Under the pieces are notes generated by a model. It saw nothing but the letters and a program-made list of their open reading frames with translations, had not been told where the DNA came from and did not search any database. Shown one piece after another: positions 250 through 13,604 of a DNA stretch of 15,492 nt (position 1 is the stretch's first letter; each line of letters starts with the position of its first letter). The stretch comes from a bacterium (GTDB taxonomy: Bacteria > UBA9089 > CG2-30-40-21 > SBAY01), in the NCBI GenBank assembly GCA_040757115.1, contig JBFLYA010000084.1, positions 1 through 15,492 on the forward strand, written 5' to 3'. Position numbers and translations under genes: made by a program.

Positions 250-3003
250 ATGAATTTTAAATCTTATTTAGAAAATATTTTAAACGATGAAGAAATTAAT
301 AAGTGGCAACGGCTTTACATTCCATTAAATGCGGAAGAGGTGCTTGAGGAATTATCTATTACGCCTGAAGTTGAGAAGAGGATATTAGAAAAAGCCTCAA
401 TAGAAGATAAAGATATTCTCCAATCTCGATTTAAAAGGAATAAATACGAGTTTAAAACCAAAGATATGATAACAGAATTGCTCGAAACAAAAGTCAGACG
501 GGTGATTTTGATTGGAGAATCAGGCTCAGGAAAGACAACATTGCTTAAGTGGATTACTCTGGTATATGGACAGCAGGCTATTGAAGAAATCAATACCACA
601 GGTGATATTCTCAAATCTAAAATTCCGGTCTATATAGATTTAGCCACTTATCATAAAAAGATAGAGATAGATGGATTTTTACTCCAGTATTTAAAATCTC
701 ATAATTTAGAATGTAGTTTTGAGGAATTAATTCCTGGTTTTGAATCAGGTAAATTCTTATTTTTGTTTGATGGATTAGACCTATTAGGAGTTAAAACTGA
801 AGATTTTGACCCAATTACTTCTATCCAGAAATTTATTAATAAATATCCCAAAAATATCTACCTTTTAAGTTGCCGTAAAGGGGTGCGTTATACCAATTTT
901 CCACCTACTTATAAAATAATAGAATTAGCCGAATTAACCAGGGAAAAGATTGCCGAATATCTGGCACATTATGTCAAAGATACAAGTAAAAAAGATGAAA
1001 TATTAGCCCAAATACAAAAATTGCCTCAGTTTGAAGAAACTACACCTCTAATGTTACTTTTAATCATTCCTGTATTTACTCGATTTAAAGAAATCCCAAT
1101 AAATAAAACCCGGATTTATTCGCAGTATATCAATTGCTTATACGATTTGTTTGAAAAAATAGGACGACTAACTAATATAGAAAAAGAGTTAATAAATGCT
1201 ATCCTGAGTGAGTTAGGATTTGATTTGCAAGTAGATGATGAAACTGTTCTTGAGGAAGAGAAGGTTTTAGATATAATTGCCAATTTTATTATCAAGCATA
1301 AATATAATCGGCTGGCTAAAGATGAGATTTTAAAATTATGTAGTCAATTAGGATTTTTGAAGATGCAAGATGGGGAGGTAAAGTTTTTCTATCAATCATT
1401 TCGTGAGTATTTCGCTTCATTGAAGTTAAAAGAGTTGTTTTTGGGAGGTGTAGATATTTCAGGGACTTTTACTCATCCTAAGTGGGAAGATGTCTTGACT
1501 TTCTTAAGTTCAAATCTCGAAGAGCCAGATGCCAGTAGATTAATTCAAGCAATTGTCAAAACTCCCTATGAGTTTCGTAATCCATTATTTGTTGCAGGTA
1601 AATGTCTTATAGGAAATATGGTAAAGGAAGATACCAGACAAGAAATTATTAATCAACTTTTAACTAATACAGTAGATAAATATTGGCATAATCAACGAGA
1701 ATCTATTTATCTCTTAACTCAGATTTTAGGTGAGGAAATAGCTTCAACGACAATAGAATCTTTGATTGAGCAATTAAAAGATGAAGATTGGATTCGAAGG
1801 GAGAAATCGGCTAAATCAATGGGTAGAATGTGCGGTAAAGAAGCAATCGCTCACATTAGACGGCTTTTAGAGGATGAAAATCCATCTGTTTATAATGCCG
1901 CCTTTGAAGCCCTCATTGAAATAGAAAGAAGAGAAAAAGAAGATATCAAAATCGAACTGGAAGAGATTAAAGGGATAAAAGAAGTAGAAGAGATTCCGCC
2001 TCAACTATCTGAAATTACAGAAATTATACCTCAAGAAGAAGAAAGGAAGATAATTCCGACAGAGAATTTAACCCTGGTCTATATAAACCTGACTCGAGCC
2101 GTTGAAGGGCTGGGGATACAATTAGATGAAGCTAAATCAGTAATTATCAACCAGGTTTTTAATAATACCCTGAGACCTATTATAGAAACAGAACATGGTG
2201 AAGTTGATGAAATGGAAGAAGAAGTAACCATTGCTACCTTTGATGGCCCAAAAGAGGCACTTTATGCTACGGTCAAAATGCAAAGTGCCATAGATGAATA
2301 TAACCTCCGTCAGCCTTCACGAAAGGTCTCTTTAAAACTTGCTGTATCGACTAAACACCATGGAGAATCAATAGATAGAGTGAAAATTTTAGCCACTAAA
2401 ATAGGTGAATTGACCAGAGCAGGACAAATATTAGTTATTGAAAATGCATACAAAGCCGTGCATGGTAAGGATAAGACAGTTAGATTTCGATATTATGGCT
2501 CTCGAAAATTAGAAGGAGAGGAAAGCCAGAAACGTGGAATATATGAATTATTATGGCAAGGAGAAGAACATGCCTCAATGATTAAAGAATCAATTATGGC
2601 GATTGAGTATTTAGAACAGGTTTCCGCATATAATATAACTAAAAATAAACCCATTATTGGTAAAATAAAAGTGGCAAGAACCTTTTTAAAAAGATTAAAA
2701 GGACTAATGTTCGCTAAAGAGACACAACCTTTAGTCATAGAATTTGCGGCATCTTCTGGAATAAAATCCCCTATTCACACCTTTTTTGTGCAGTTCCCTA
2801 TAGATGCTGTGTTTTTAGACCCCAATTTTAAGGTAGTAGATTTGATGGAAAATTTACCACCAGTTAAACTTGCCGACACAAGCACCTGGAAAATATACAC
2901 CCCAGATGCCCCAGCAAAATATGTCTTAGAACTCCCTCAAGGAACAATAAAAAATAATGGTATAGAGTTATCGGATATTATTATCTTTAAAGAAGGAATA
3001 TAA
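250..3003 (+). CDS. NACHT NTPase / HEAT / cyclase-like / DUF192 fusion protein
   Basis: A 917-residue STAND-type signalling NTPase. The start is the ATG at 250, preceded by GGAGAGG; an in-frame TTG at 205 is less likely. Domains: N-terminal helical lead (1-80); NACHT with Walker A GESGSGKTT (89-97, K95), Walker B FLFDGLD (D174, D177) and a sensor-like SCR (207-209); a winged-helix-like segment with SFREYFA (383-389), a form common in NACHT proteins; HEAT/PBS-lyase-like repeats (about 500-560); a charged linker (about 560-605); a class III adenylate cyclase-like domain (607-770); and DUF192 (804-915, with RLKGLM and YVLELPQGTI). The cyclase domain looks catalytically dead: N613 stands where the first metal Asp is expected, and EE replaces the GD of the second site. 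No signal peptide or membrane segment is seen, so it is probably cytosolic. Known STAND proteins switch on by nucleotide-driven oligomerisation after sensing a ligand. The ligand and output here are unknown. A role in defence or signalling is inference. Confidence 0.85.
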   Translation: MNFKSYLENILNDEEINKWQRLYIPLNAEEVLEELSITPEVEKRILEKASIEDKDILQSRFKRNKYEFKTKDMITELLETKVRRVILIGESGSGKTTLLKWITLVYGQQAIEEINTTGDILKSKIPVYIDLATYHKKIEIDGFLLQYLKSHNLECSFEELIPGFESGKFLFLFDGLDLLGVKTEDFDPITSIQKFINKYPKNIYLLSCRKGVRYTNFPPTYKIIELAELTREKIAEYLAHYVKDTSKKDEILAQIQKLPQFEETTPLMLLLIIPVFTRFKEIPINKTRIYSQYINCLYDLFEKIGRLTNIEKELINAILSELGFDLQVDDETVLEEEKVLDIIANFIIKHKYNRLAKDEILKLCSQLGFLKMQDGEVKFFYQSFREYFASLKLKELFLGGVDISGTFTHPKWEDVLTFLSSNLEEPDASRLIQAIVKTPYEFRNPLFVAGKCLIGNMVKEDTRQEIINQLLTNTVDKYWHNQRESIYLLTQILGEEIASTTIESLIEQLKDEDWIRREKSAKSMGRMCGKEAIAHIRRLLEDENPSVYNAAFEALIEIERREKEDIKIELEEIKGIKEVEEIPPQLSEITEIIPQEEERKIIPTENLTLVYINLTRAVEGLGIQLDEAKSVIINQVFNNTLRPIIETEHGEVDEMEEEVTIATFDGPKEALYATVKMQSAIDEYNLRQPSRKVSLKLAVSTKHHGESIDRVKILATKIGELTRAGQILVIENAYKAVHGKDKTVRFRYYGSRKLEGEESQKRGIYELLWQGEEHASMIKESIMAIEYLEQVSAYNITKNKPIIGKIKVARTFLKRLKGLMFAKETQPLVIEFAASSGIKSPIHTFFVQFPIDAVFLDPNFKVVDLMENLPPVKLADTSTWKIYTPDAPAKYVLELPQGTIKNNGIELSDIIIFKEGI

Positions 3004-3363: not shown

Positions 3364-3455
3364 GCCTAACGGCTGAGCGTATCTGAAGTTCCGAGCGGAG
3401 CGAGGAATTTGGGCAAAGTGCCGAAGGCACGGAGCCAGATATGCGTCTGTTAGGC
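3364..3455 (-). other. attC-like recombination site C (92 bp)
   Basis: Read on the minus strand, the site opens with GCCTAAC (3455-3449) and closes with GTTAGGC (3370-3364), which fit the RYYYAAC and GTTRRRY core boxes of integron attC sites. Inside, GCATATCTG pairs with the complement of GCGTATCTG with one mismatch, and one extra base is left unpaired next to it, as expected for L boxes with an extrahelical base. Two small hairpins fill the centre: TTCC...GGAA and GTGCCGAAGGCAC. It begins 16 bp after the stop codon of the efflux gene, the usual place for a cassette's attC. Confidence 0.72.
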
Positions 3456-4411
3456 GATGTTGGGGCATAATTCATTTGCAGTGATTTATTTCTATAGTTA
3501 TATGCGCTAATCCATCAATTCCTTTTAATTTATTTTTATAAGCAATTATTGAGCAGGGATTCTTAGCAACAATGCTTAAAATACATGCATATTTGTTTTG
3601 TGCTACTCTCCAAAAATGTAAATCGCTAATTTTACTATCACCATCAGATTCTATTATTTCTGTTATTTCTTTAATGAGCGGAGAATCCATCTCTCTATCT
3701 AATAAAATGCCAGAGGTATCTTTAATAAGCATAAGTGTCCATCTAAATATTAAAAATGAACCAATTATTCCTACGAATGGATCAAGCCAATTCCAGTGAT
3801 AATATTTCGTTCCGAGTAGAGCTATAATGGCAAATATGGAGGTTAATGCATCTGTAATGACATGGATATAGGCAGATTGTAAATTAAGGTCTTTTTCGTG
3901 ATTGTGGTGAGCAGGGTTATATTGCAGTATTAGTGCGCTAACTATGTTTACTATTAAACCGACAAACGCCACTATTAATGCATAATCATAAATAATTTCC
4001 ATCGGTTTGAAAATTCGTTCAATAGATTTTCCTAAAACGAATAAACCAACTATTCCTAAAAGAACTGCATTTGTATAAGCACCTAATATTTCGATTTTCC
4101 AGGTACCAAAAGCGAATCTTTTATCATTTGCATGTTTTCTCGCAAGAATGTATGCAATTAAAGAAATACTTAATGCAGTCGCATGTGTACTCATATGCCA
4201 TCCATCAGCAAACAGGGCCATAGAATTATAAACCCAACCCGCAATAATTTCAATTAACATTGTTGACAATGTTAAAAGAACAATAAAAAGCGTTCTTCGT
4301 TCAGTAGATTTTTTCTCTTGATTAAAGTAGTGATGATGTTGCCATCGCTGTATTTCTGTTAGATGCATAACTTATTCCTTTTGAATGATCTTACGCCCCA
4401 ATGTCGCCTAA
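3370..4411 (-). mobile_element. Putative integron gene cassette carrying dmeF-like gene
   Basis: A 1,042 bp unit bounded by the G^TT cut positions of two attC-like sites. It holds one gene in the same orientation as its neighbour cassette and almost nothing else: the ATG lies 38 bp after the upstream core box and the stop 16 bp before site C. The sequence just inside its start (4391-4412) is the inverted complement of the sequence around its own R'' box (3449-3470), 19 of 22 bases. This compact one-gene layout is typical of cassettes. No integrase gene is present in the window. Confidence 0.62.
3472..4368 (-). CDS. dmeF: DmeF-type cation diffusion facilitator (Co/Ni efflux)
   Basis: A 298-residue inner-membrane cation diffusion facilitator, which exports divalent metal using the proton gradient. 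The DmeF branch is recognised by the N-terminal HHHYF, the ERRT stretch before the first membrane helix, and the second-helix motif ADGWHMSTHA (D55, H58, H62). The other half of the metal site is HVITD (H169, D173). About six hydrophobic segments span residues 25-215, with a short His cluster (154-157) in the loop before helix 5 and a cytoplasmic CDF C-terminal domain after 220. DmeF members are known for cobalt and nickel efflux; the metal here is inferred. The start is the ATG at 4368 with AAGGA upstream. The gene is the only cargo of its attC-bounded cassette and may depend on read-through transcription. Length is normal for the family. Confidence 0.88.
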   Translation of the reverse strand: MHLTEIQRWQHHHYFNQEKKSTERRTLFIVLLTLSTMLIEIIAGWVYNSMALFADGWHMSTHATALSISLIAYILARKHANDKRFAFGTWKIEILGAYTNAVLLGIVGLFVLGKSIERIFKPMEIIYDYALIVAFVGLIVNIVSALILQYNPAHHNHEKDLNLQSAYIHVITDALTSIFAIIALLGTKYYHWNWLDPFVGIIGSFLIFRWTLMLIKDTSGILLDREMDSPLIKEITEIIESDGDSKISDLHFWRVAQNKYACILSIVAKNPCSIIAYKNKLKGIDGLAHITIEINHCK

Positions 4412-4726
4412 CGGGGTGCGGATGAGCGAAGTGCCCCGAAGGGGCATTTTGGTTTCAGCCCCGACCCGCAAGCGCGACCCACTTCGTGGGTGCCCCACCG
4501 CCGCCGCTGATAGCCGAAGTGACGCAGAGCCACTTCCGATTTCAAGAAAAAACTTCCGGACTACATCTGGCTGAAGCTCTTCGCTCATCCGCACCCCGAT
4601 AACCAAAATGCGAACCCCAAAGGGGTTTAATCTCTGCGTCATTTTGGTTATCGGGTTGCGTGTTTACGACATTGCGACCAAAGGGAGAAATGTGGTTTTA
4701 ACCCTTGCGTAAACATGTTGTTAGAC
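4406..4726 (-). other. Composite or rearranged attC-like site B
   Basis: Read on minus, it opens with GTCTAAC (4726-4720) and closes with GTTAGGC (4412-4406). The last 66 bp (4406-4471) match site A (5519-5584) at 65 of 66 positions. The 4601-4655 part resembles the other half of site A. Between them sit about 130 extra bases, including an inverted copy (about 4577-4598) of the site's own end. A separate stem (GTTTACG with CGTAAAC) occupies 4656-4720 but has no closing GTTRRRY box. A perfect 16-bp stem pairs 4595-4610 with 4640-4655. The simplest reading is two attC sites fused after loss of what lay between them. Confidence 0.6.
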
Positions 4727-5148
4727 GCTGTTGGTCGCTTCCTCATTTAATCCATTGGTAAAACTAATCTTATTTAAAACAAATTCTTTTACCTTTTTTG
4801 CTATTTCATATGCTTCTTTTACATCCTCTTGTGTTGGTTCAAACCAATCATCAGGATAACGAATCTCTACAGCATAATCTTCTAACTTTTCAACCATCTC
4901 ATAAATTCCCTCGGATATCTCTTCTTTTTCACCTATCAAATCTAACAAATAGCTTAAACTATGTTTTTTCTCAAATTTAATATCTAAAAATACCAGGTAG
5001 GCTTTTAAGTATTTTTCAACTGTTTGTTGGCAATGGAAACATATAGAATCTGTAATTCGGGCTTATTTTCTAAGGCTAATTCTGCCATCCCTAAATCGTG
5101 CTCTGCCTTACCAATCCATTCTTTAATCAGTAGAGTTATATTATCCAT
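4721..5148 (-). pseudogene. HEPN-domain protein, interrupted by a frameshift
   Basis: The ATG at 5148 begins MDNITLLIKEWIGKAEHDLG, a typical HEPN N-terminus. That frame runs to a stop soon after residue 37, and the family's FHCQQTVEKYLKAYL motif continues in another frame from 5038. Adding one base in the T run at about 5037-5039 restores one 142-residue frame ending at 4721. The rejoined protein resembles the PF05168 HEPN group (FHCQQ, then KKHSLSYLL, then EIRYPDDW). I see no Rx4-6H motif of the RNase-type HEPN toxins. The start overlaps the end of the nucleotidyltransferase gene by 8 bp (5141-5148), so the two were probably translated together. The stop TAA falls inside the GTCTAAC core box of site B. 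This may be a real mutation or a sequencing error. Confidence 0.82.
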
Positions 5149-5455
5149 AGATAACCTTTCCTTTCTCCATAACAGTTGTTATAAAAGCTGGTTTAACATC
5201 GCTCCATTTCTGAATTTCCTCTTTAGTATATACCAGTAAATCAATGGCAATTTTTAAGCCCCTAAGATACTTTCGGATTTCTCTTCCTCTCTTATACCTT
5301 GGAAGATTACTTTCCTTAATTATCAATATATCTAAATCACTATCTTTTGTGGGATTTCCAGAGGCATAAGAGCCAAAAAGAATTATTTTTTCCGGCTTGA
5401 TATTCTCTACAATCCTTCTTTTAACCTCATCTATCTGTTCTTGGGTTACTATCAA
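5141..5455 (-). CDS. MNT-type nucleotidyltransferase (putative antitoxin of HEPN pair)
   Basis: A 104-residue minimal nucleotidyltransferase of the pol-beta fold. The active-site motif is intact: GSYASG (28-33), SDLD (39-42, with D40 and D42) and a third acid in IDLLVY (D72). In studied MNT/HEPN modules the MNT partner modifies its HEPN toxin by adding nucleotides and so neutralises it; that role is inferred here. The start is TTG at 5455 with a strong AAGGGGG upstream, about 64 bp after the core box of site A. The 3' end overlaps the HEPN start by 8 bp, indicating translational coupling. The length is normal for the family. Confidence 0.85.
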   Translation of the reverse strand: MIVTQEQIDEVKRRIVENIKPEKIILFGSYASGNPTKDSDLDILIIKESNLPRYKRGREIRKYLRGLKIAIDLLVYTKEEIQKWSDVKPAFITTVMEKGKVIYG

Positions 5456-5518: not shown

Positions 5519-5633
5519 GTCTAACGGGGTGCGGATGAGCGAAGTGCCCCGAAGGGGCATTTTGGTTTCAGCCCCGACCCGCAAAATGCGAACCCGAAGG
5601 GATTCGAGCTCTGCGTCATTTTGTCGGTTAGGC
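5519..5633 (-). other. attC-like recombination site A (115 bp)
   Basis: On the minus strand it opens with GCCTAAC (5633-5627) and closes with GTTAGAC (5525-5519). Next to these boxes, ATGACGC faces the complement of ATGAGCG, the same L-box pattern with an offset base as in site C. The interior holds the hairpins GCCCCGAAGGGGC (about 5536-5548) and CCCGAAGGG (about 5593-5601). It is GC-rich against an AT-rich background and 65 of 66 bases at one end match site B. The gene upstream of it in cassette order is the propeller protein, whose stop is 118 bp away. Confidence 0.72.
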
Positions 5634-5751: not shown

Positions 5752-7236
5752 TTACGGCGTGAAGGTGAAGGTTTCGATGTCGGTCGTTAAGTGGTCGCCA
5801 GTGATGGGATGGAGTAGTCTGCCCAGAACTTCATATAGCCCTGCTGGCTCACTACCAGTAAAGGTGTAGGTAAGAAGATTTAATGGACCAATCCCTCCTG
5901 CAGGAATAGTAATATTATACATATTTATCAACGAAATATAGTCACCCGTAGGTAACTTTATACAAACCTTTGCATCCACCGTTGTAGCAGAACCTGGATT
6001 ATCTACCCTGACATCTATCCTTGCCGTATCTCCGGTGGTAAATGTGTCCTGGTTTAAGATAATATCAATAGCAAATGATGGGGAAAATGTCCCTCTTTTA
6101 TAATAAATCTCAGCATTTCCATCTCGAGTATCGTGCCAAACGATATGTATCCCATTTGCATCTGAGATAATCGCCGGATGATCAGACCAACCTGAATCAT
6201 AAGTCAACCGCACATCCGCTCCCCAGATATTTCCTCCGTCCTGACTACGCTTATAATAAATCTCATAATTTCCATCTCGATAATCAACCCAAACGATATG
6301 TATCCCGTGTGCATCTGAGGTAATCGCCGGCCACCAAGAACCAGCTGAATTATCAGTCAATTGGACATCAGGTCCCCAGGTATTTCCTCCATCCTGACTA
6401 CGCTTATAATAAATCTCAGAATTTCTATCTCGCTCATCATACCAAACGATATGTATCCCGTGTGCATTTGAGGTAATCGCCGGATAGTGAGAATAACTTG
6501 GATCATTAGTCAACCGCACATCCGGTCCCCAGGTATTTCCTCCATCCTGACTACGCTTATAATAAATCTCCCAATTTCCATCTCGATAATCCATCCAAAC
6601 GATATGTATCCCGTGTGCATCTGAGGTAATCGCCGCCGGATGCCAAGACAAACGTGAAGCATTAGTCAACCGCACATCCGGTCCCCAAGTATCTCCTCCA
6701 TCCTGACTACGCTTATAATAAATCTCAGAATCTCGCCAATCCTCCCAAACGATATGTATCCCGTATGCATCTGAGGTAATCGCAGGATACTGAGAATAAC
6801 TTGGATCATAAGTCAACCGCACATCCGGTCCCCAGGTATCTCCTCCATCCTGACTACGCTTATAATAAATCTCCCAATTTCCATCTCGATAATCATGCCA
6901 AACGATATGTAACCCGTGTGCATCTGAGGTAATCGCCGGATTCCCAGACAAACTTGAATCATAAGTCAACCGCACATCTGGTCCCCAGGTATTTCCTCCA
7001 TCCTGACTACGCTTATAATAAATCTCAGCATTTCCATCTCGCCAATCATACCAAACGATATGTATCCCATTTGCATCTGAGGTAATCGCTGGCTCATAAG
7101 ACTCCTTTAAAGCATAAGTCAACCGCACATCCGGTCCCCAGACAGGTTCATCAGCTAAGCATAGATTTGTAACTGAAAATAGTCCTATCACCAACACCCA
7201 TAATTTTAACCCTTTGTTTTTCTTTAAGATTTTCAT
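5752..7236 (-). CDS. Secreted seven-repeat Asp-box (BNR-type) beta-propeller-like protein
   Basis: A 494-residue exported protein. Residues 1-28 form a signal peptide (lysines, a hydrophobic core WVLVIGLF, and CLA before the cleavage point). Residues 33 to about 389 are seven repeats of about 51 residues, each built as WGPDVRLT, PAITSDAHGIHIVW, a D-x-RDGN turn and EIYYKR; the first six end in SQDGGNTW or a close variant, a clean Asp-box. Seven repeats suggest a propeller fold. Residues about 390-494 resemble an Ig-like or CARDB-type beta domain. No sialidase catalytic residues could be assigned, so the function is unknown; surface binding is a guess. The start is ATG at 7236 behind AAGGAGG. 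The gene could be cargo of a first cassette ending in site A, but no attC or attI is seen upstream of it. Confidence 0.82.
   Translation of the reverse strand: MKILKKNKGLKLWVLVIGLFSVTNLCLADEPVWGPDVRLTYALKESYEPAITSDANGIHIVWYDWRDGNAEIYYKRSQDGGNTWGPDVRLTYDSSLSGNPAITSDAHGLHIVWHDYRDGNWEIYYKRSQDGGDTWGPDVRLTYDPSYSQYPAITSDAYGIHIVWEDWRDSEIYYKRSQDGGDTWGPDVRLTNASRLSWHPAAITSDAHGIHIVWMDYRDGNWEIYYKRSQDGGNTWGPDVRLTNDPSYSHYPAITSNAHGIHIVWYDERDRNSEIYYKRSQDGGNTWGPDVQLTDNSAGSWWPAITSDAHGIHIVWVDYRDGNYEIYYKRSQDGGNIWGADVRLTYDSGWSDHPAIISDANGIHIVWHDTRDGNAEIYYKRGTFSPSFAIDIILNQDTFTTGDTARIDVRVDNPGSATTVDAKVCIKLPTGDYISLINMYNITIPAGGIGPLNLLTYTFTGSEPAGLYEVLGRLLHPITGDHLTTDIETFTFTP
6070..7140 (-). repeat. Tandem 153-bp coding repeats in the propeller gene
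   Basis: The landmark CTGACTACGC recurs on the plus strand at 6241, 6394, 6547, 6703, 6850 and 7003, spaced 153, 153, 156, 147 and 153 bp. The units are strongly alike at the DNA level, including synonymous positions. The length variants are whole codons: one extra alanine in repeat 4 and two missing residues in repeat 3. Confidence 0.9.
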
Positions 7237-7332: not shown

Positions 7333-7695
7333 CTATTTTAAGCGAACAGCAGGGAGACGCTTCAATCGTTGATTTTGTGGATCAACTTCAATTCCAACGG
7401 ATTCTAAAGCTGTTACACCAAGAATTGGCTCTACATCATCCTTCCCAAAGATTACTGTTGTCCATACAATTTCACCCATAAACTCAAACTGTCCTCCACC
7501 AATATCCATTGCTACCTCTGTTCCATCAGCCAATTCATATGTTCTCTTACCTCTTGGTTCAATCCCAATTTCCCGTAAGTGCTTACCTGGTACCATACAA
7601 TCAATAGCACCTGTATCTACAAGAAATAATCCTTCCCATCGTCGTTCTGGGTCAGCAGGATTACTTACAGTTACTGTTACTTGTGTCATTCCCAT
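7333..7695 (-). CDS. Retropepsin-like clan AA aspartic protease
   Basis: A 120-residue single-domain aspartic protease of the retroviral-like fold. The catalytic motif is VDTGA (D27-T28-G29) and the second half carries the ILGVTALESVGIEVDP stretch (91-106) followed by LPAVRL. This matches the small clan AA group described from archaea and bacteria (AF_0612-like). One subunit has a single catalytic Asp, so it should work as a homodimer. There is no signal peptide, hence cytosolic. The natural substrate is unknown. The start is ATG at 7695 behind AGGAGGTGAC, with a good promoter upstream. The propeller gene follows 96 bp downstream on the same strand and might be cotranscribed. There is no sign that the gene belongs to a retroelement. 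Confidence 0.85.
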   Translation of the reverse strand: MGMTQVTVTVSNPADPERRWEGLFLVDTGAIDCMVPGKHLREIGIEPRGKRTYELADGTEVAMDIGGGQFEFMGEIVWTTVIFGKDDVEPILGVTALESVGIEVDPQNQRLKRLPAVRLK

Positions 7696-11429: not shown

Positions 11430-11525
11430 TAATTTCTCCCCTCCCTATTTTTGGTAAATTAGAGTTCTGCAAAACTAAGAAACTGGAGTTTTTAAATGGG
11501 TATTTAAAACCTCTATTTTTATCAA

Positions 11526-11810
11526 TTTCCTCCAAAGAGCAAAATGCAAAACTCGTTTATAGTTTATGGTTTATAGTTTATAGTGTATAGTTTATAGTTT
11601 ATAGTGTATAGTCCTTCAACTATCAACTATAAACTATCAACTATAAACTATCTTTGCCAAAGTTCAGTAAAATTATCTCTTTCCTTTCAGCGTTAAAATA
11701 CTTGAAGTCCTTTTTGAAATTTGATTTGTAATTTTGCATTTTGATATTTATATTTGATATTTGATATTTGATATTTATTTATTGTCTCCCCCAAATCCTA
11801 TTTTGCAAAA
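11526..11810. repeat. Inverted repeat copy 1 (upstream of the ABC ATPase gene)
   Basis: This is the inverted counterpart of 13221-13473. The outer 25 bases (11526-11550) match 13449-13473 perfectly in inverted orientation. Most of 11671-11805 matches 13222-13412 closely, including the ATATTTGAT-type run. Relative to copy 2 it lacks 47 bases inside and carries a word-repeat hairpin (11555-11652) in place of a short segment. No coding potential is evident. Confidence 0.75.
11555..11652. repeat. TTTATAGT word-repeat hairpin
   Basis: The left half is tandem GTTTATAGT-like units (about 11555-11612) and the right half their complements (ACTATAAACTATCAA-like, about 11618-11652). It lies inside inverted repeat copy 1, where copy 2 has about 30 unrelated AT-rich bases. 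It therefore looks like a separate insertion or expansion. Confidence 0.65.
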
Positions 11811-11891
11811 CACTATTGGTAACTAATTAATTACCAGTTACCACTTTTGAATTATACCCTTAAATTTCTATCCTGTCAAGGAAAAAAATTG

Positions 11892-11921
11892 TTGACAAGT
11901 TAAATATCAAAGTGATATGAT
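11892..11921 (+). promoter_or_regulatory. Sigma-70-type promoter for the ABC ATPase gene
   Basis: TTGACA (11892-11897) and TATGAT (11916-11921) are separated by 18 bases. Transcription should start near 11928, only about 10 bases before the ATG at 11938, leaving no room for a Shine-Dalgarno sequence. The mRNA is therefore probably leaderless or nearly so. Confidence 0.65.
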
Positions 11922-11937
11922 ATAAGTTGCAATTCAA

Positions 11938-12888
11938 ATGGATGAAAAGTTGTTAGAAATAAAAGAGTTAAAGGTCTCCTTTTTTATTGATAAAAGAGAG
12001 TTACCAACGATAGATGGTGTCAATCTTTGCATAGATAAAGGTAAAACCATAGGGTTAGTTGGTGAATCAGGATGTGGAAAATCATTAACGGCTTTTTCGA
12101 TACTTCGACTCCTTCCTGAGCAGGCAGAAATTGTTGGAGGCGAGATTAACTTTGAAGGAGTAGATTTATTAAAATATTCTAAGACACAAATTCGAGATAT
12201 TCGAGGCAGGAGAATATCAATGATATTCCAGAACCCGTCTTCATCTCTAAATCCTGTTTTTACTATCGGTAATCAGATAGCTGAAGCAATCCATTTACCT
12301 TATCGAGAGGCAGAAGAAAGGGTCAAAGGACTACTAAAGTTAGTTGGTTTGCCTGCGGTTGAAAGGCACTTTCCCCATCAACTAAGTGGCGGGATGAATC
12401 AACGGGTGATGATTGCGATGGCGATAGCTTCCAATCCAGCAATTCTAATTGCAGACGAGCCAACGACGGCTTTAGATGTAACGATTCAAACACAAATTCT
12501 GGCGCTGTTAAAAAATCTACAAAGCAAATTAAATATGTCCATATTATTAATTACGCATGATTTAAGTATTGTAGCTCAAATGACTGATGTGGTGACGATT
12601 ATGTATGCCGGTAAGATAGTTGAAGAGGCAACCACAAATGAACTTTTTACCCAGCCAGTTCATCCTTATACGAAAGCACTTTTAGATTGTATTCCGAAAC
12701 TTGAGAAAAAAACTGAGCGATTACCTTATATCCCGGGGAGTGTTCCAGATAGTTTTACTTCAATTAGTGGCTGTAGATTTCATCCCCGATGTCAATCTGC
12801 GAGTTCAAAATGTGTTCTCGAGGAACCACCAATGAAGCAAATAGATGATACTCATAGGGTTAGATGCTGGAAATATTCAAGAAATTAA
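11938..12888 (+). CDS. dppD: Oligopeptide/dipeptide ABC transporter ATPase (OppD/DppD type)
   Basis: A 316-residue ATP-binding subunit of a peptide- or nickel-type ABC importer, acting on the inner face of the membrane. Visible are Walker A GESGCGKS (42-49), the Q-loop FQNP (Q98), signature LSGGMNQR (149-156), Walker B ILIADEP (169-175) and switch H207. The C-terminal extension with HPYTKALL and four cysteines (C279, C285, C292, C310) is the oligopeptide-transporter tail, which in a studied DppD binds an iron-sulfur cluster. Relatives normally sit in five-gene operons with two permeases, a second ATPase and a binding protein; none is nearby, so this is an orphan. The ATG at 11938 has no ribosome site, though a TTG five codons in is an alternative start. 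Two inverted repeat copies flank the gene. dppD versus oppD cannot be decided. Confidence 0.88.
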   Translation: MDEKLLEIKELKVSFFIDKRELPTIDGVNLCIDKGKTIGLVGESGCGKSLTAFSILRLLPEQAEIVGGEINFEGVDLLKYSKTQIRDIRGRRISMIFQNPSSSLNPVFTIGNQIAEAIHLPYREAEERVKGLLKLVGLPAVERHFPHQLSGGMNQRVMIAMAIASNPAILIADEPTTALDVTIQTQILALLKNLQSKLNMSILLITHDLSIVAQMTDVVTIMYAGKIVEEATTNELFTQPVHPYTKALLDCIPKLEKKTERLPYIPGSVPDSFTSISGCRFHPRCQSASSKCVLEEPPMKQIDDTHRVRCWKYSRN

Positions 12889-12891
12889 ACA

Positions 12892-12905
12892 GGGCGTGAA
12901 AGCCC
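12892..12905 (+). terminator. Weak hairpin after the ABC ATPase gene
   Basis: GGGC and GCCC pair around GTGAAA just past the stop codon, followed by an AATTTCTAATTT tract. The stem is only four pairs, so this is a weak terminator candidate. Confidence 0.25.
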
Positions 12906-13001
12906 AATTTCTAATTTCGTAAGCATTCAGCCATCAGGTATCAGCAATCAGTTAACATCCAGGAAATCAGGATAGTAACAAATCCTACAATTTTGCGTAA
13001 A

Positions 13002-13076
13002 GGGTGTCTATGTGTCTGGTAGTCTATGTAACCCAGACACTTAGACACCCAGATACCAGACTACCTGAACGGTTAC
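13002..13076. repeat. Nested hairpin of GTGTCT/AGACAC words
   Basis: 13002-13019 pairs with about 13032-13050 (17 of 18 bases). An overlapping alternative pairs GGTAGTCT (about 13018-13025) with AGACTACC (about 13057-13064). It ends in CCTGAACGGTTAC (13064-13076), which also occurs at 216-228. Non-coding. Confidence 0.7.
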
Positions 13077-13142
13077 CTAATTTCAACCTTTTCTATGGTT
13101 AATCTTAACATTATTCAATTACGAAGTCTCTCGGATAAAAAT

Positions 13143-13158
13143 TCCCCTCTTGAGAGGG
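13143..13158. repeat. CCCCTC/GAGGGG hairpin of a dispersed-repeat type
   Basis: CCCCTCTTGAGAGGGG forms a short stem and is followed by GGAAGGGGTGTG. Sequences of this form are scattered in intergenic regions of many unrelated bacterial genomes. Here it stands in the non-coding stretch 12889-13604, which holds only hairpins and the second inverted repeat copy. Confidence 0.45.
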
Positions 13159-13220
13159 GGAAGGGGTGTGTTTTTCTGGTGGTGTCTTAATCTAGCATAA
13201 AGGTTAAAATAGTGTATAGG

Positions 13221-13473
13221 GTTCTGCAAAATAGGATTTGAGGGAGACAACAAATAAATATCAAATATCAAATATTAAATATCAAATATAAATATCAAAA
13301 TGCAAAATTACAAATCAAATTTCAAAGAGGAAGTAACAGGGTTTCTCAAAGAGTTGGAGGAATTTGGTAATATCTTTGCTTCAAGTATTTTAACGCTGAA
13401 AGGAAAGAGATAATTTTACATTTTGATATGTAATTTTTATATTTGCTTTTTGCATTTTGCTCTTTGGAGGAAA
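13221..13473. repeat. Inverted repeat copy 2 (downstream of the ABC ATPase gene)
   Basis: Inverted copy of 11526-11810. It begins GTTCTGCAAAATAGGATTTG, the near complement of 11792-11810, and ends with the 25 bases that match 11526-11550 perfectly. It contains 47 internal bases missing from copy 1. A 37-codon reading frame (13300-13413, plus strand) crosses those 47 bases but is broken in copy 1, so it is not called as a gene. Confidence 0.75.
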
Positions 13474-13604
13474 TCCCTTTTGGACACCAAATCTGCATAG
13501 ATTTCACTATTAGAGTTATTTTCAGACACCACCGGAAAATCTAATAAAATCAACGGTAAATTCTATCCGAGAGCGTTCTGATAGGCATAGGAGGTTATAA
13601 ATAT

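Follow-up and report, generated by a model that had tools for sequence, protein, structure and literature searches.

Bacterial NACHT proteins are now seen mainly as anti-phage receptors, and members with C-terminal sensors protect from phages (PMC12169576). Catalytically inactive cyclase domains are known from predicted conflict proteins, in which they have been proposed to act as nucleotide binders or dominant-negative regulators (PMC7159879). In the stretch of DNA analysed here (15,492 nucleotides, hereafter the window), a NACHT ATPase and a degenerate cyclase domain are joined on one chain with HEAT-like repeats and a C-terminal DUF192. DUF192 is widespread; to our knowledge it has neither an established function nor a known ligand, and no tested function was found in the literature under DUF192, UPF0127 or COG1430. 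Each of the three, NACHT, inactive cyclase domain and DUF192, has been described before; in the genomes examined, they were found combined only in the order to which this bacterium belongs.

The fusion is encoded by a single stop-free open reading frame, with a purine-rich sequence resembling a ribosome-binding site directly 5' of its ATG at position 250. Its parts are the following:

250..3003, plus strand: whole NACHT-HEAT-pseudocyclase-DUF192 gene, 917 aa, with full-length homologues in 8 of 8 genomes of the order
250..489, plus strand: conserved N-terminal segment (residues 1-80), no recognised effector domain
496..981, plus strand: NACHT ATPase (residues 83-244), from Pfam, with Walker A and Walker B-like motifs
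982..1449, plus strand: putative NACHT-associated helical/winged-helix region (residues 245-400), from the homologue alignment
1450..1935, plus strand: short HEAT-like repeat region (residues 401-562), HEAT_2 at 502-558
1936..2058, plus strand: variable acidic/proline-rich linker (residues 563-603), the fastest evolving part
2059..2559, plus strand: degenerate class III cyclase homology domain, very probably a pseudocyclase (residues 604-770), from profile and alignment
2560..2637, plus strand: conserved connector MIKES.MA.EYL (residues 771-796) from pseudocyclase to DUF192, from the alignment
2662..2976, plus strand: DUF192 of the leaderless type (residues 805-909), from Pfam, motif and tree

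The initial annotation had read four domains in this frame, with a short N-terminus lacking a recognised effector and an unusual C-terminal tail, and all three points were borne out. Pfam matched NACHT (PF05729) at residues 83-244 (E 5e-9; 36.6 bits against a cut-off of 26.7), HEAT_2 at residues 502-558 (E 9.6e-8, above its curated cut-off) and DUF192 (PF02643) at residues 805-909 (E 2.6e-13; 50.3 bits against a curated cut-off of 27), the last of these having been predicted at 804-915; the cyclase was recognised with a profile of the homologues, as described below. DUF192 was matched by Pfam in all eight homologues, and the NCBIfam model PRK03760 overlaps the same domain (residues 794-914, E 1.5e-26, below its own cut-off). 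The PADLOC and NCBIfam matches outside DUF192, NACHT and HEAT were judged to be chance P-loop or repeat matches. The Walker A motif GESGSGKTT lies at residues 89-97 and the Walker B-like motif FLFLFDGLD at residues 169-177; G89-E90-S91-G92, G94-K95-T96-T97 and D174-G-L-D177 are invariant in the eight homologues, as is FFYQSFREYFA (residues 379-389). From the usual anatomy of STAND proteins, residues 245-400 would correspond to the winged-helix region. The N-terminus (residues 1 to about 80-84) gave no Pfam match, and no match of the NCH/SNaCT type was found in the fusion. Because AlphaFold, run on a three-sequence input, returned a pLDDT of only 34 for the whole protein and 32 for its C-terminal half, these domain calls rest on sequence profiles.

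The initial annotation had suggested a search for the same architecture and had named an assembly join between two genes as a possible refutation, alongside failure to find DUF192 or the cyclase fold; neither holds, as homology to DUF192 and to cyclases is present and the fusion recurs in separate assemblies. The fusion was found full-length, in single copy and with the same domain order in all eight genomes examined of the order, at identities of 97, 70, 69 and 44-45% to the window's protein (two loci, L008 and L009, apparent records of genomes G003 and G002, were left out of the evidence counts). It was found in none of 11 other genomes of the phylum and, in a search of 386 genomes at E 1e-20, nowhere outside the order, where the matches comprised the NACHT part only, plus a stand-alone DUF192 in genome G008. 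Whole-gene dN/dS values of 0.13-0.22 in the closer pairs indicate purifying selection; the fastest change is in the linker (residues 563-603), and the constraint on DUF192 is similar to that on the core, some of the domain values being derived from few changes. As the same architecture recurs in eight genomes under purifying selection, an assembly join can be excluded, and the chance that two genes were joined by an artefact of annotation or assembly is negligible: eight separate assemblies share an identical junction with no stop.

The cyclase domain, placed at residues 607-770 in the initial annotation, gave no Pfam match in the window's sequence even when searched alone, and matches in three of the eight homologues were marginal (best E 0.0087). 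However, when a profile of residues 602-773 built from the eight homologues was compared with PDB sequences, the best matches were class III cyclases (E 4e-7 to 0.009), headed by Ma1120 (4WP3; E 4.2e-7, residues about 603-733). A cyclase with canonical motifs is also encoded in this genome, and the domain aligns with it over its whole length, from the FTDI strand through to the terminal IYEVLW. Three cyclases that carry the canonical motifs, two of them from the order and the third from genome G058, served for comparison: the first metal-binding Asp (FTDI) is replaced in all eight fusions, by Asn in family f1 and by Ser in family f2. At the position of the second metal Asp (GD), f1 members have Glu or Asp and f2 members Gly or Ala, and the VN..AR motif is partly retained, only in some f2 members. 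The ends that define the fold are retained despite the loss of the first Asp, and the segment DEYNLRQP.RK (residues 682-692), missing from the active-looking cyclases, is invariant save for one position. The class III homology is thus real but degenerate: judged from these residues, the domain is very probably a pseudoenzyme, and because of this degeneracy production of cAMP or cGMP is very unlikely.

DUF192 occurs as two types, an exported type with a hydrophobic leader and the motif FWMKNT, and a leaderless type with the motif IHTFFM. The fused copy, with PIHTFFV, groups with the leaderless type in the DUF192 tree, and neither a signal peptide or lipobox nor the FWMKNT motif was found in it; the earlier remark that DUF192 is often exported therefore holds for one of the two types but not for this copy. 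Its sister in the tree, with a local support of 0.905, is a leaderless DUF192 that stands alone in G008, a genome of a different family within the phylum. Because the fused domain is leaderless and sister to this stand-alone protein, we suggest that the ancestor of the order may have fused a resident DUF192 to the switch; the reverse, a fission, is also possible. Fusions involving DUF192 exist elsewhere, such as L034, a beta-helix-DUF192 protein whose start resembles a leader, and L037, in which DUF192 precedes a PEMT-like domain, and among the other long DUF192 frames sampled none carries NACHT. Two further long frames, L032 (1119 aa) and L033 (845 aa), were rejected as DUF192 fusions: each seems to be a DUF192 gene for a lipoprotein or secreted protein whose frame runs on spuriously at its upstream end.

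No DUF192 other than the fused one was found in any of the eight genomes (G002 being 88% complete). This, together with the stand-alone sister of the fused domain, would fit a DUF192 that keeps an independent cellular role, the NACHT-HEAT-pseudocyclase part only scaffolding it or regulating its abundance. We regard this as distinctly improbable: the connector and the HEAT faces show the same degree of conservation as DUF192, and coupling between the parts is therefore suggested. The anti-phage role raised earlier, and with it the question whether homologues cluster with defence genes, fared poorly. A bNACHT-like defence protein that senses infection with its C-terminal pseudocyclase and DUF192 would be in keeping with the NACHT core and with the precedents cited above for C-terminal sensors and inactive cyclases, and the NCBIfam NACHT antiphage model gives a weak match to the P-loop (E 1e-5), with a score far short of its cut-off. 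Nevertheless, such a role is unlikely. The gene is not patchy or mobile but present as a single copy in all eight genomes of the order, its C-terminal domains (linker excepted) have a rate of evolution similar to that of the slowly evolving core, and no defence gene or defence island was recognised beside it at the loci examined, where the annotated neighbours are housekeeping genes. No relative was found in viral contigs or phages, plasmid relatives share NACHT-level similarity only (23-25%), and PADLOC gave only weak matches, to P-loop or HEAT sequence. Pfam recognised no N-terminal effector in residues 1-84, an absence that is not decisive alone, since some bNACHT proteins also have no discernible effector (PMC12169576).

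The neighbours of the gene were compared across the order. In three of four f2 loci the order is Gfo/Idh, MsbA-like ABC, DUF374, fusion and VTT/DedA, all on the same strand, and in one genome 50 bp separate the fusion from DUF374. This collinearity would suit a regulator of envelope biogenesis, a switch working with the adjoining genes for lipid/LPS export and the acyltransferase-like genes. We consider this quite unlikely, as the f2 genomes examined belong to one genus, so that the shared order may be just recent descent, and the neighbours at f1 loci are quite different. In the window, the fusion adjoins an integron-like array and unrelated genes. A small clan AA aspartic protease (TIGR03698) is encoded at 7333-7695, and a protein similar to it by eye, which may be chance, lies about 5 kb from the fusion of G003 (L021:4342-4722).

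The adjoining array, described in the initial annotation as cassette-like, is a genuine integron-like array. Sites resembling attC (GCCTAAC...GTTAGGC) at 3364-3455 and 5519-5633 bound minus-strand cassettes with the following genes:

3472-4368, minus strand: cation-efflux gene, cassette between the attC-like sites
5141-5455, minus strand: nucleotidyltransferase open reading frame, cassette between the attC-like sites

An integron integrase scoring above the TIGR02249 cut-off is encoded on contig C39 of the same genome. The fusion, however, is not one of the cassettes, as no attC bounds it: the nearest attC-like site lies 361 bp downstream and none was found in the 249 bp available upstream. 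Among loci with readable flanks, only the window has such an array beside the fusion, and no attC sites were found near the homologous loci that were read. A third repeat, at about 4398-4601, partially matches the attC-like sites. Elsewhere in the window, 5752-7236 encodes a 494-aa protein with seven 153-nt repeats, a likely repeat expansion that matches the beta-propeller repeat model TIGR04275 slightly below its cut-off, and an oligopeptide-type ABC ATPase gene (11938-12888) lies within 11525-13474 between long inverted repeats of 27-104 nt (81-100% complementary), which look like the termini of a mobile or rearranged block.

Two loci viewed for another reason, in which DUF192 lies directly after tadC-like genes, prompted a survey of a sample of 60 DUF192 loci (L055-L114), comprising 37 leaderless, 22 exported and one unclassified DUF192. 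TadB/TadC-like T2SSF genes were present within 6 kb of 21 of the 37 leaderless genes versus none of the 22 exported ones (Fisher p 2.8e-6, a value that ignores phylogeny, the surveyed loci spanning many families); without the two seed loci, the linkage is 19 of 35. In all 21 linked loci, DUF192 and the nearest T2SSF gene share a strand, with DUF192 on the downstream side, at no more than 244 bp and mostly touching or overlapping its neighbour, and in 15 of them a T2SSE (tadA-like) gene is present further upstream; Pfam bore out the T2SSF and T2SSE identities in the examples tested. Tad pili may have an accessory in leaderless DUF192 that has gone unrecognised; none of the papers found links the two, which does not prove that such a link is unreported.

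At the six fusion loci with readable flanks no Tad gene was found, and the fusion does not directly follow tadC. Pilus genes adjoin it at one of these loci, in G003, where the prepilin gene of a prepilin-pilC-pilT-pilB cluster converges on it, their ends lying 13 nt apart. PilC/GspF-type platforms are present in all eight genomes; short Tad-type T2SSF proteins are listed in only four, which makes a strict Tad partner unlikely. A link between the fusion and type-IV-pilus-like machines is plausible, yet it is a lead and not a result, because pilus neighbours occur in G003 only and Tad-type T2SSF proteins in half of the genomes. The corresponding proposal, that leaderless DUF192 serves type-IV-pilus-like platforms as an accessory in the cytosol and has here been built into a STAND ATPase-pseudocyclase as a nucleotide-gated switch monitoring or controlling a pilus-type machine, is speculative and on balance rather doubtful. 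If true, it would represent a non-immune use of the inflammasome-like NACHT design.

The reading that we favour, with a probability of about one half, is that the fusion is a lineage-specific, vertically inherited cytosolic STAND switch with the pseudocyclase-DUF192 tail as its sensing or docking module. By analogy with the family, the NACHT half, whose nucleotide site is intact, would cycle between a closed ADP form and an open ATP or oligomeric form. The tail would be a non-catalytic sensing or docking module, in which pseudocyclase, connector and DUF192 may recognise a small ligand or a partner protein, and this recognition would open or read out the switch. Because leaderless DUF192 elsewhere lies directly after tadC, the likeliest class of partner might be a type-IV-pilus-like membrane platform, or something accompanying it. 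The fusion seems to serve ordinary physiology rather than the anti-phage function with which bacterial NACHT proteins are mainly associated. For DUF192, the tie of the leaderless type to tadC provides a genomic lead that makes its role directly testable.

Compared with known systems, the fusion shares with the bNACHT STAND NTPases the NACHT ATPase core, the helical/winged-helix region and the C-terminal repeats, and differs from them by the lack of a recognised N-terminal effector, by the pseudocyclase-DUF192 tail, by its order-wide single copy and by the lack of a defence context. The initial annotation held domains placed after STAND repeats to be exceptional; the tail itself is unusual, but other NACHT-HEAT proteins of the order also continue into a C-terminal domain, HD-CE in L044 and FGE-sulfatase in L048 (L048:1399-3999 in G003:C365). 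These proteins are not full-length relatives, as they end in another domain, and the repeat array of L044 is much longer. One study reportedly described hypermutated antigen sensors in a context related to NACHT-HEAT-FGE-sulfatase proteins. The class III cyclase Ma1120 resembles the pseudocyclase in its profile match, whereas the metal-binding Asp residues are replaced in the fusion. Cyclase-STAND-TPR signalling proteins (for example G000:C26, L046; Guanylate_cyc, NB-ARC and TPR) likewise carry a cyclase and a STAND ATPase on one chain, and their cyclase aligns end to end with the pseudocyclase; however, theirs is N-terminal and retains the catalytic residues, whereas that of the fusion is C-terminal and degenerate. 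Finally, the leaderless DUF192 proteins of Tad operons have the IHTFFM-type motif, lack a signal peptide and share a tree branch with the fused domain, but are small stand-alone proteins rather than parts of a STAND protein.
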